From assembly GCA_019752015.1 (NCBI GenBank), contig JAIEMQ010000074.1, positions 1 to 47,351 of the forward strand: a stretch of 47,351 nucleotides of DNA, in the 5' to 3' direction. A program made the position numbers and the translations under genes. The notes below the pieces were generated by a model, which saw nothing but the letters and a program-made list of their open reading frames with translations, was not told the origin of the DNA and did not search any database. This document shows, in pieces, positions 19,646 to 37,518 of the stretch. The stretch comes from Cyanobacteriota bacterium (GTDB lineage Bacteria; Acidobacteriota; Vicinamibacteria; Vicinamibacterales; UBA2999). Position 1 is the first letter of the stretch, and every line of letters begins with the position of its first letter.

Positions 19646-20221
19646 ATGGGTTCTCTGATAGAAGCGATCGAGATCAAGCGGAAGTCGTACTTCGAGTACG
19701 AAAACGCGCCGTACCATTGCCTCGATGTGGAAGTCTCGAAACCGACGGCGCGCGGCGGGCAGACGCTCGTCCGTCTGAAGATGCGCAACCTGATCACGCG
19801 CGCGGTGTTCGACAAGACCTTCAAGGCCGGCGAGAAGTTCGGCGAGCCCGACCTCGTCATGTCCGCGGCGACGTTCACCTATAGTGACGGCGACGGCTAT
19901 CACTTCATGGATCAGGAAACCTTCGAGACGCTGACGCTTGGCACCGACATCCTCGGTGAAGACCGCGGGCTGCTCGTCGACAACGTCGAGGTGCAGATTC
20001 ATCGCTACAACGGCCAGCCGATCGGCGTGGTGTTTCCGCCCCACGTCGAGTTGACGGTGACGAACACCGAGATGGGCGTGCGCGGCAACACCGCGAGCGG
20101 CAGCGTCACGAAGACCGCGGTGCTCGAAACGGGACTCGAAATCCAGGTCCCGCTCTTCATCAAGGAAGGCGAGAAGGTCAAGGTGCACACCGAGACTCGC
20201 GAATTCGCCGGGAGGGCCTAG
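19646..20221 (+). CDS. efpL: Elongation factor P-like protein (EfpL/YeiP type)
   Basis: 191 residues with all three EF-P domains, ending EKVKVHTETREFAGRA. The loop that in EF-P bears the modified Lys34 reads KPTARGGQT (residues 32-40), with Arg36 at the tip. That matches the E. coli YeiP/EfpL loop (PTARG) rather than EF-P (PGKGQ), so it should need no post-translational modification. EF-P family proteins bind between P and E sites and rescue ribosomes stalled on proline-rich sequences. The selenoprotein gene follows after two bases, its ribosome-binding site lying inside this gene's last codons, so they are one operon. Plain EF-P with an unusual loop is the alternative. Confidence 0.85.
   Translation: MGSLIEAIEIKRKSYFEYENAPYHCLDVEVSKPTARGGQTLVRLKMRNLITRAVFDKTFKAGEKFGEPDLVMSAATFTYSDGDGYHFMDQETFETLTLGTDILGEDRGLLVDNVEVQIHRYNGQPIGVVFPPHVELTVTNTEMGVRGNTASGSVTKTAVLETGLEIQVPLFIKEGEKVKVHTETREFAGRA
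20210..20216 (+). promoter_or_regulatory. Ribosome-binding site of the selenoprotein gene
   Basis: GGGAGGG lies in the last codons of efpL; its GGAGG core is eight bases before GTG 20224. It is a strong Shine-Dalgarno match and fixes the start of the unannotated selenoprotein frame. Confidence 0.7.
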
Positions 20222-20223
20222 CC

Positions 20224-20454
20224 GTGAGCACGGTCACGATCCGCTACTGCGTGGTTTGAAATTACGAGCCGCGCGCCGCCCGTGTGGCGGCGTTGATCAC
20301 GGACTCGCTGAAGGTCGATGCCGGCATCGAGCCGGGTGGCCGTGGCGAGTTCACGATCTGGGTCGGCGGCGTGAAGGTCGCCGAGAAATCGCGTCACGGA
20401 TTCCCCTCGGACAAGGCCATTCTCGACAGCGTCTCCAAAGCCATCTCAGCCTGA
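20224..20454 (+). CDS. SelW-like (Rdx family) selenoprotein with in-frame UGA
   Basis: Read from GTG 20224 with TGA 20257-20259 as selenocysteine, this gives 76 residues ending at TGA 20452-20454. It starts STVTIRYCVVUNYEPRAA: a first beta strand followed by CxxU, then the N-Y-x-P-R-A found in bacterial SelW relatives. The rest matches the thioredoxin-like Rdx fold: GRGEFTIWVGGVKVAEKSRH, then GFPSD and a closing helix (ILDSVSKAIS). Rdx proteins are small thiol/selenol redox proteins of the cytoplasm with largely unknown partners. Treated as a stop, the UGA would leave an 11-codon stub with conserved sequence beyond it. Placed between efpL (two-base gap) and a Rieske/FAD oxidoreductase (36 bases), it probably shares their transcript. 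The selenocysteine machinery (selA-D) is not in this window. Confidence 0.85.
20257..20293 (+). promoter_or_regulatory. UGA codon plus candidate bacterial SECIS stem-loop
   Basis: After UGA (20257-20259), CGCCGCC (20274-20280) pairs perfectly with GGCGGCG (20286-20292) around the loop CGUGU (20281-20285); a G-U pair (20273/20293) extends it. The loop starts 21 bases after the UGA and has G as its second base. This fits the known bacterial rule of a short upper stem 16-37 bases downstream with a G in the first two loop positions. SelB would bind it to deliver Sec-tRNA. Confidence 0.75.
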
Positions 20455-20490: not shown

Positions 20491-22005
20491 ATGGCTTCCA
20501 ATGTCAAGGGACCGGTCTGGTCCGATACGGCTAAGGTTCCGTCGTTTTCCCCTCTGACCACCGACACTTCCGCCGACGTCTGCATCGTCGGCGCCGGCAT
20601 TGCCGGACTTACGACGGCATATCTACTTACCCAAATTGGGAAAACCGTCGTCGTGCTGGACGATGGCGCGATTGGCAGCGGCCAGACGGGCGCGACCACC
20701 GCGCACCTCGTCAACGCGCTCGACGATCGGTTCATGGATCTCGAGAAGTACCACGGCGAGCGCGGCTCGCGGCTGGCCGCCGAAAGCCACAGCGCCGCGG
20801 TCGATCGCATCGAAAGCATCGTGACGCGCGAGCGGATCGCCTGTGATTTCACGCGGCTCGACGGTTACCTGTTCCTCGCGCCCGAACACGACGAGCACTA
20901 TCTCGATCGCGAGCTCGAAGCCGCGCACCGCGCCGGGCTGCACAACGTCGTCAAGGTCGGACGCGCGCCGATCTCGTTCGATACCGGTCCCTGCCTCCGC
21001 TTTCCGAGCCAGGCCCAGTTTCACGTGCTGAAATATGTCGCCGGACTTGCCGAAGCGATTGAGCGCGGCGGCGGAAAGATCTACACCGGGACGCATGCGG
21101 CAACGATCGACGGCGGCAAGGACGCCGCCGTCAAGACGAACAGCGGCAATACGGTGCGCGCCGGCAGCATCGTGGTGGCGACCAACACGCCCGTCAACGA
21201 CCGCGTCGTCGTCCACACCAAGCAGGCGCCGTACATGACCTACGTGATCGGCGCGCCGGTGCGAAAAGGTTCAGTGACGCTGGCGCTCTATTGGGATACG
21301 GGCGACCCGTATCACTACGTTCGTCTCGTCACCGGCATCGATGCGGAAAACGATCTGTTGATCATTGGCGGAGAAGATCACAAGAGCGGGCAGGCGGATG
21401 ACATTGAAGAGCGGCATCCGCGCCTCGAGTCATGGGCACGCGAGCGGTTCCCGATGATGGGCGAAGTGACGCACAAGTGGGGCGGACAGGTGATGGAACC
21501 GATGGATGGCCTCGCGTTCATCGGCCGCAATCCGCTCGACGCCGGCAACGTCTACATGGTCACCGGCGACTCGGGCAACGGCATGACGCACGGCACGATC
21601 GCCGGAATGCTGATCACGGATCAGGTCGCCGGACGTCACAATCCGTGGGAGGCGCTTTACGATCCGGGGCGCGTGACGCTCCGCGCGACCGACGAATTTG
21701 CGAAGGAGAATCTCAACGTCGCCGTTCAATACACGGACTGGCTTTCCAAAGGCGACGTGTCGTCGGTTGACGACATCCCTAAGGATTCCGGAGCAGTGAT
21801 GCGAAAAGGCGCAGCAAAAATCGCCGTATATCGCGACGCGACCGGTTCATTGCACGAACGATCGGCGGTATGTCCTCATCTGGGATGCATCGTTCAGTGG
21901 AATCCCTCAGAGAAGACCTGGGACTGTCCGTGCCACGGATCGCGTTTCACAAAATTTGGTGAAGTGATGAACGGACCGGCGAACGTCGGACTGGTGCGAA
22001 GCTGA
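20491..22005 (+). CDS. FAD-dependent oxidoreductase with C-terminal Rieske [2Fe-2S] domain
   Basis: 504 residues. An N-terminal DAO-type FAD domain has VCIVGAGIAGLTTAYLL (GxGxxG, about 30-46), GATTAHLVNALDDRF and a late FAD motif VYMVTGDSGNGMTHGTIAG. The C-terminal 90 residues are a Rieske domain with CPHLGC and CPCHGSRF supplying two Cys and two His ligands. The architecture is common in bacteria (glycine/D-amino-acid oxidase fused to Rieske); the substrate is unknown. It follows the selenoprotein gene by 36 bases, suggesting a shared redox operon, though no functional link has been shown. Confidence 0.9.
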   Translation: MASNVKGPVWSDTAKVPSFSPLTTDTSADVCIVGAGIAGLTTAYLLTQIGKTVVVLDDGAIGSGQTGATTAHLVNALDDRFMDLEKYHGERGSRLAAESHSAAVDRIESIVTRERIACDFTRLDGYLFLAPEHDEHYLDRELEAAHRAGLHNVVKVGRAPISFDTGPCLRFPSQAQFHVLKYVAGLAEAIERGGGKIYTGTHAATIDGGKDAAVKTNSGNTVRAGSIVVATNTPVNDRVVVHTKQAPYMTYVIGAPVRKGSVTLALYWDTGDPYHYVRLVTGIDAENDLLIIGGEDHKSGQADDIEERHPRLESWARERFPMMGEVTHKWGGQVMEPMDGLAFIGRNPLDAGNVYMVTGDSGNGMTHGTIAGMLITDQVAGRHNPWEALYDPGRVTLRATDEFAKENLNVAVQYTDWLSKGDVSSVDDIPKDSGAVMRKGAAKIAVYRDATGSLHERSAVCPHLGCIVQWNPSEKTWDCPCHGSRFTKFGEVMNGPANVGLVRS

Positions 22006-23350: not shown

Positions 23351-24754
23351 ATGATGGTTCGTACCGAACACGACGCGCTGGGCCCGGTGGAGGTTCCCGC
23401 CGAACGCTTGTGGGGCGCGCAGACGGAACGATCCCGTCATTTCTTTGCGATCGGCGTGCCGCGGTTCGTGTGGACGCGGCCGGTGATTCGCGCGCTCGGC
23501 CTGCTGAAAAAAGCCGCGGCCCGCGCCAACGGCGAGCTCGGCACGATCTCGAAAGAGCGCGCCGACCTGATCTCGAAGGCGGCCGACGAAGTCATCAACG
23601 GTACGCTCGACGCCGAATTCCCGCTGGTGGTGTTCCAGACCGGCTCCGGCACGCAGAGCAACATGAACGCCAACGAGGTGATCGCCAACCGCGCGAACCA
23701 GCTCGCCGGCAGGCCGCTCGGCTCGCACGAGCCGATCCACCCCAACGATCACGTCAACAAGGGGCAGTCGTCGAACGACGGATTTCCCGTGGTGATGCAC
23801 GTGGCCACCGTCGAAGGCATCGTGCAGCGCCTGATGCCCGCCGTCGCGACGCTGCGCAACACGCTCGCCGAGAAAGCGAAAGCGTACGAGAACGTGGTGA
23901 TGATTGGCCGCACGCACCTTCAGGATGCCGTGCCCATCACGCTCGGACAGGTGATCAACGGCTGGGTCGCGCAGATCGATGCTGCGCTCGCCGGTGTTGG
24001 CGCGTCGCTCGATGGCCTGCACGCCGTCGCGTTCGGCGCCACCGCGGTCGGCACCGGGCTCAACGCGCATCCGCGATTCGGCGAGACGGCGTCGATCCAT
24101 CTCGCCAAAGCCACCGGACAGCCGTTCCGGATGACATCGAATCACGTCGCGGCGTTGTCCGGACACGATGCGATGGCCGCGGCGAGCGGCGCGCTTCGCA
24201 CGCTGGCGTCGGCGCTGATGAAGATGGCCAATGACGTGCGCCTCTACGCGTCGGGACCGCGCGCCGGCATCGGCGAGCTGAAGATCCCGGAGAACGAGCC
24301 GGGCTCGTCGATCATGCCGGGCAAGATCAATCCAACGCAGTGCGAAGCGTTGACCATGGTCGCGGTGCAGGTGTTTGGAAACGACCTGGCCGTGGCGATG
24401 GCCAACAGCCAGGGGACCTTCCAGCTGAACGTCTACAAGCCTGTCATCCTGCACAATACGCTCGAGTCGATCGAGCTGCTGGCGGACGGCTGCCGATCGT
24501 TCGAGCTGTACTGCGCGCGCGGGCTCGAGCCGAATCTCGATCGCATCCGGCAGCACGTGGACGAGTCGATCATGCTGGTGACGGCACTGAACCCCCACAT
24601 TGGCTACGAGAAGGCCGCGGAGATCGCGCTGAAGGCGCATCGCGAAGGGTTGTCGCTGCGCGATGCGGCGATCGGGTCCGGCCACGTGACCGCCGAGCAG
24701 TTTGCGGAGTGGGTGAAACCGGAAAGAATGGCGCGCCCGAATCCCGTCGCGTAA
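23351..24754 (+). CDS. fumC: Fumarate hydratase, class II
   Basis: 467 residues of the fumarase/aspartase superfamily. The signature [15 protein letters not shown] (about residues 318-332) is intact, with the earlier conserved blocks [32 protein letters not shown] and [26 protein letters not shown] plus the full length favour class II fumarase over aspartase or argininosuccinate lyase. It interconverts fumarate and malate in the citric acid cycle and needs no iron-sulfur cluster. Two adjacent ATGs (23351, 23354) can serve as start. The next gene begins 13 bases downstream. Confidence 0.93.
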
Positions 24755-37320: not shown

Positions 37321-37380
37321 GATGTGCCTCCAATCACGCTGACGAGGTTAGCTGCCGGGCTCGAGGTTGGAAGTCCTCTT

Positions 37381-37418
37381 GCCCTCCGAAGCTCGCGTTT
37401 GCGCGAGCGAAGGAGGGC
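37381..37418. repeat. Symmetric palindrome with GAA/GAA internal loop
   Basis: GCCCTCC-GAA-GCTCGCG-TTTG-CGCGAGC-GAA-GGAGGGC: two perfect 7-bp stems separated by a symmetric GAA/GAA internal loop, closed by TTTG. It is in the 198-base gap (37321-37518) upstream of the SPFH gene, which holds no gene I can see. The form is that of REP-type elements that RAYT transposases act on. Confidence 0.7.
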
Positions 37419-37518
37419 TTTCGCCCCAGGCACGGAATGTGCCGTTTGGGTCCCCCGCGACACTGCGGTGCAGTGTCTTAAGCGTCGTTTCTTACGATGC
37501 CGGCGGCAGCAAGAGGTG

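Follow-up and report, generated by a model that had tools for sequence, protein, structure and literature searches.

Does a short frame that is interrupted at its twelfth codon by an in-frame TGA, and that lies between two genes reading in the same direction, encode a complete selenoprotein? The question is raised by positions 20224-20454 (+) of the window, by which we mean the whole stretch of 47,351 nucleotides analysed here; it is contig 39 of an 82-contig genome of 5.9 Mb (G000), given as 100% complete. Translated with TGA as U, the frame runs for 76 codons from a GTG start, VSTVTIRYCVVUNYEPRAARVAALITDSLKVDAGIEPGGRGEFTIWVGGVKVAEKSRHGFPSDKAILDSVSKAISA, and closes with a terminal TGA at 20452-20454. 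It holds exactly one internal TGA, at 20257-20259 (+), the predicted selenocysteine (Sec) codon. The original prediction saw in this frame a complete protein of the Rdx family, and the profiles agree: with C in place of U, residues 3-71 match Pfam Rdx (PF10262) at 40.5 bits (cut-off 22.6; E 3.3e-10), and the protein matches NCBIfam CXXU_selWTH (TIGR02174) at 36.6 bits (cut-off 34.2). The UGA completes the motif C9-V-V-U12, the CxxU form of the family's redox motif, and its U aligns with a Cys in the structures 2oka and 3dex, which have CxxC at this place (two alignments seen). A Shine-Dalgarno-like GGGAGGG, read from the sequence at 20210-20216 (+) within the 3' end of the upstream gene, stands 7 bases before the GTG, or the 8 bases predicted for the ribosome-binding site if it is counted as GGGAGG.

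A plain reading with translation table 11 ends at codon 12, and the table 11 list of open reading frames (minimum 90 amino acids) contains nothing in this frame; the 76 codons of the SelW-like gene also fall under that minimum. The gene is a clean example of one that is dropped at the UGA by plain reading of open frames. An open frame running past the UGA by chance can be dismissed, because homologues conserve the residues before the UGA as well as those after it. Among 60 near genomes, 11 carry the SelW-like gene (the window's own included) and all of them have TGA at the U column. Ten of these have the gene in one piece with a single TGA; in the remaining one, G004, it is split over two contig ends, and the part that includes the U column has the TGA. 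The SelW-like loci from named records have TGA in eight of eight cases. In a broader sample of the phylum, 98 of 297 genomes match the SelW-like profile; the 114 rows listed for them were counted by hand and comprise 100 with TGA (one also with TAG) and 14 without, eight of which begin past the U column. Of the listed matches, 106 span the U column and 100 of these contain TGA, so that the predicted Sec form of the protein is common in the phylum.

Read at the level of bases, 80 of these 114 rows gave 74 TGA and 6 TGC. The 80 consist of 20 rows returned by the search and 60 chosen by hand, the latter including all six stop-free rows that cover the column; these are the six TGC rows, selected for that reason, and among the 74 TGA rows there are five loci already present in the relatives set, the window itself included. 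The column is therefore one at which Cys and Sec exchange, and both kinds of sequence proposed with the original prediction as a check, Rdx homologues aligning across the UGA and Cys-containing homologues aligned at the U, were found. Two rows of G032 (L045 and L046, also contained in L058) were considered as SelW and not counted: they align only past the U column, match without a UGA, and look like chance. Another relative, L025, comes from a record titled Acidimicrobiia, and its SelW DNA is identical to that of G272 (L060) over the 60 bases compared; the title is probably a wrong lineage label, since G272 is assigned to the order of the window's genome.

The bases that follow the UGA form a hairpin within the coding sequence, GCGCCGCC-CGUGU-GGCGGCGU (20273-20293, +), whose apical loop, CGUGU (20281-20285), begins 21 nt downstream of the UGA. 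According to a 2026 review (PMC13188914), bacterial SECIS elements carry G as the first or second base of a small apical loop that for most lies 16-37 nt after the UGA, and the loop and spacing of the window hairpin agree with this rule. When the UGA and the next 51 bases were folded, 18 of 19 sequences formed their hairpin at this position; L025 is the exception, its minimum-energy structure having a shifted register. A local hairpin measure likewise favoured this position in 17 of 19, with the loop at a distance of 21 or 22 nt from the UGA; the other two (G007 and G008) score better with a different hairpin, whose loop lies 15 nt after the UGA. The support from any single sequence is modest: among 1000 synonymous-codon shuffles 62 match the window hairpin, and an equally good fold is reached by 9 of 200 dinucleotide shuffles of 20250-20320 (z -1.91), while under the synonymous-codon null all 19 sequences are on the stable side of the mean, with a mean z of 1.7. 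The case for a SECIS element consequently rests on comparison.

For this comparison, 99 segments were reduced to 92 unique ones (86 TGA, 6 TGC) by dropping 7 duplicates, and 7 TGA segments with an extra codon after the UGA were kept apart, which left 79 unique TGA segments to be counted. Over seven stem pairs, 88% of the cells in these 79 are standard pairs; there are 24 pair types, and two-sided changes number 51. When the partners are slid by 1-3 columns, these values reach no more than 64%, 20 and 23. The outermost pair is weak, being kept in 49 of 79 rows, yet it holds 23 of the 51 two-sided changes; without it the stem gives 92%, 18 types and 28 changes, versus at most 69%, 14 and 20 for the slid partners. 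The pair that closes the loop (24-30) is a clear compensatory case, with C-G in 68 segments, G-C in 10 and G-G in one. On the same stem columns the six TGC forms pair at 60%. Since the rows are related by descent, none of these counts are independent. All 79 TGA segments have G as their second loop base; Arg, Gly and Trp codons force a G there, which leaves the Ser codons as the sole evidence for it. The codons used in the loop are rare ones, Ser being AGT in 30 of 30 (6.7% in the background) and Gly being GGT in 19 of 19 (18.5%), with mechanically picked long open reading frames of related loci as the background. Taken together, the conserved stem-loop is a predicted bacterial SECIS element; lying in coding sequence, it would force rare codons on the gene, and its segments offer a ready-made alignment for modelling such elements.

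The original prediction also held that this lineage makes selenocysteine, and proposed looking for selA, selB, selD and tRNA-Sec in the rest of the genome. All four are present, and the claim is supported. A tRNA-SeC with anticodon tca was found by ARAGORN on contig 36 and scores 61.2 bits with the tRNA-Sec model; selB lies on contig 15, scoring 341.8 bits (cut-off 242.25) and containing SelB winged-helix domains; selA is on contig 13 (541 bits, cut-off 267.9), and selD on contig 19 (L019; 353 bits, cut-off 125), the last having an in-frame TGA of its own, read as CAGUASK. The specificity of the profiles was controlled on 14 genomes, and because few of these pass the cut-offs (two for SelB, two for SelD, one for SelA) the three protein calls are specific. 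The tRNA-Sec model matches all 14 control genomes at E 0.001 and exceeds its cut-off in five, and the tRNA-Sec call therefore rests on ARAGORN and on the other sel genes. The gene upstream of selB was considered as selA and rejected: its frame of 423 amino acids has no match, an overlapping frame of 758 amino acids encodes an RNB protein of the RNase R type, and selA itself lies on a different contig.

In the same genome, two of ten AhpC-TSA matches have one in-frame TGA at the redox position. The genome would thus have at least four likely selenoproteins beside the full machinery, since the SelW-like gene, selD and two AhpC-TSA genes hold an in-frame TGA. Peroxiredoxin- or thioredoxin-like proteins bearing a UGA were seen on contigs 43 and 21 (L142 and L144), with the motifs AFTAGUTAEC and FFSAWUGACRAE. 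Among the 11 carriers of the SelW-like gene, SelB exceeds its cut-off in ten (the exception, G007, is 80% complete) and a tRNA-Sec match of at least 61 bits is likewise found in ten, the exception being G052 with a best score of 48.9 bits. Of the 60 near genomes, 43 have SelB above its cut-off and 11 have the SelW-like gene, which means that most Sec-using relatives are without it.

We regard it as nearly certain, from the sequence comparisons above, that the gene makes a small Rdx-family redox protein in which UGA 20257-20259 would be read as Sec and the CxxU pair would be redox-active. The six TGC homologues of the phylum sample could suggest instead that a Cys codon (TGC or TGT) was turned into TGA by an error of sequencing or assembly, and that the gene encodes an ordinary Cys-containing Rdx protein. 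Such an error is very unlikely indeed, because separate genomes hold TGA in the same column: not only 74 of the 80 phylum loci read but all 18 other relatives and records counted as SelW have it (G004 on its contig-end half). The SECIS-like stem-loop behind the TGA also argues against an error, the TGC forms pairing less there than the TGA segments (60% against 88%). Hardly any credence can be given to a decaying pseudogene with a nonsense mutation, even though the table 11 reading does stop at codon 12: the protein is conserved past the UGA in 18 aligned rows, and neither frameshifts nor losses of conserved residues after the UGA were seen in the relatives of that alignment. Compared with G004, the 44 codons after the UGA show 14 synonymous-only differences and 14 residue changes, the conserved residues of the family being kept, and the start, the ribosome-binding site and the terminal stop are all intact.

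It is also very improbable that the UGA is read as a residue other than Sec, for instance as Trp or Cys by suppression. Homologues do have Cys, so that insertion of Cys would also give a working protein; against this reading stand the complete Sec machinery (including a SelD with its own UGA), the SECIS-type loop, and the fact that the terminal codon of the SelW-like gene is itself UGA. Sec insertion at 20257-20259, which we strongly infer, would follow the standard bacterial mechanism. SelA and SelD would make Sec-tRNA-Sec, and SelB would bind both this tRNA and the stem-loop just after the UGA, bringing about Sec incorporation instead of termination. The C9-x-x-U12 pair, which follows the first beta strand, would then form a redox-active selenenylsulfide or selenol/thiol pair. 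The Rdx (SelT/SelW/SelH) family has a thioredoxin-like fold, which by family membership the window protein would share. With its role taken from the family as well, the protein is most likely a small thiol/selenol oxidoreductase or a redox-sensing partner; the known function of SelW-like proteins is left unchanged by the present finding.

As predicted, the gene fills the gap between two co-directional genes: an elongation factor P (EF-P) family gene (19646-20221, +), whose stop ends at 20221, and a gene for an FAD-dependent oxidoreductase with a C-terminal Rieske domain (20491-22005, +). This layout is a local arrangement, because the orientation of the EF-P gene varies among relatives and the Rieske-FAD gene was found beside SelW in the window only; a tblastn search did not detect the latter in the other 19 SelW stretches (18 other genomes or records), some of which are short. 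The suggestion that the protein might be used with the adjacent oxidoreductase thus finds no support in the relatives. The upstream gene had been named efpL, a name that does not hold at the profile level: the gene passes the NCBIfam EF-P equivalog cut-off (191.6 against 185.8 bits) and misses that of EfpL (149 against 216). Its type is mixed, since the EF-P cut-off is passed yet its PTARGG loop has what we take to be an EfpL-like look.

A use of the protein with the translation factor had been suggested too. Behind it stands a neighbourhood confined to the genus and varying in orientation: EF-P adjoins SelW in all six carriers examined in the window's genus (G000, G001, G003, G004, G007 and G008; nine genus genomes were sampled). 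In the window EF-P precedes SelW on the same strand; in G001 it is SelW that comes first, again with both genes on one strand; in the other four carriers the two genes are divergent, with 17-68 bases between match ends. A shared operon is not supported, because the orientation varies in this way within the genus. Outside the genus, no EF-P match was found near SelW in 13 loci, two of them shorter than 5 kb. A functional tie between the SelW-like selenoprotein and EF-P, its constant neighbour in the genus, seems to us unlikely; if there were one, the protein could connect translation with selenium or the redox state, acting as a redox partner or as a co-regulated factor. Our literature search, made largely outside subscription journals, found nothing linking SelW with elongation factor P. 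A Pfam scan of ten neighbouring frames at six other loci gave no shared partner near SelW, only one FMN reductase, one FAD-linked oxidase/Fe-S protein and one PD40, with seven of the ten frames without match; these frames had been selected for their length, and some might not be genes. Further along the window, a class II fumarase gene (fumC; 23351-24754, +) lies 2.9 kb after SelW and is found near SelW in G001 and G008 as well (L048 and L052), in varying orientation. The sole Rfam match at gathering threshold in the window is a c-di-AMP riboswitch (ydaO/yuaA leader, RF00379) at 37322-37494 (-), which scores 68.4 bits where the gathering score is 38.

The window gene is a further member of the bacterial SelW-like selenoproteins, which have been described since 2005 (PMC1088965). 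SelW-like proteins are the most abundant selenoprotein family of the Sargasso Sea set, with 48 genes (PMC1088965), and are said to have very few or no Cys homologues in Sec-containing organisms (PMC1794560). A table of the latter paper gives 4 selenoproteins for Acidobacteria, and a 2025 predictor paper (PMC12013277) gives 3 known selenoprotein genes for one acidobacterial genome; both counts would bear on the window through the probable placement of its genome in the Vicinamibacterales of the Acidobacteriota. The 2026 review counts SELENOW-like proteins (PF10262, CxxU) among high-confidence predictions and describes the functions of such proteins as largely uncharacterized (PMC13188914). Compared by the descriptions in these sources (PMC1088965, PMC1794560 and PMC13188914), the window gene shares with the known members the Pfam family, the CxxU motif, the in-frame UGA, and a small downstream loop bearing a G; no difference in mechanism was seen, and the gene differs only by lineage and neighbourhood.

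The Cys-containing Rdx structures (2oka, 3dex, 2fa8, 2obk, 2p0g, 2ojl and 2ljk) have chains of 103-117 residues and match the window protein from residue 4 to residues 68-73, with weak E-values of 2.9e-5 to 0.026. The best NCBIfam E-value (1.4e-14) is that of SelTWH_Campy (NF041051), for which the protein, at 54.1 bits, stays below the equivalog cut-off of 88. The phylum also has a second SelW-like type (L127, L129, L132, L133, L134, L135 and L137) with an extra codon after the UGA and without NYxPRA (for example CPTU-QNN), which may be a separate, less described subfamily. Its SECIS-like hairpin is near-perfect, with 98% of cells paired once the extra codon is dropped, a step that itself fits these sequences to the structure.
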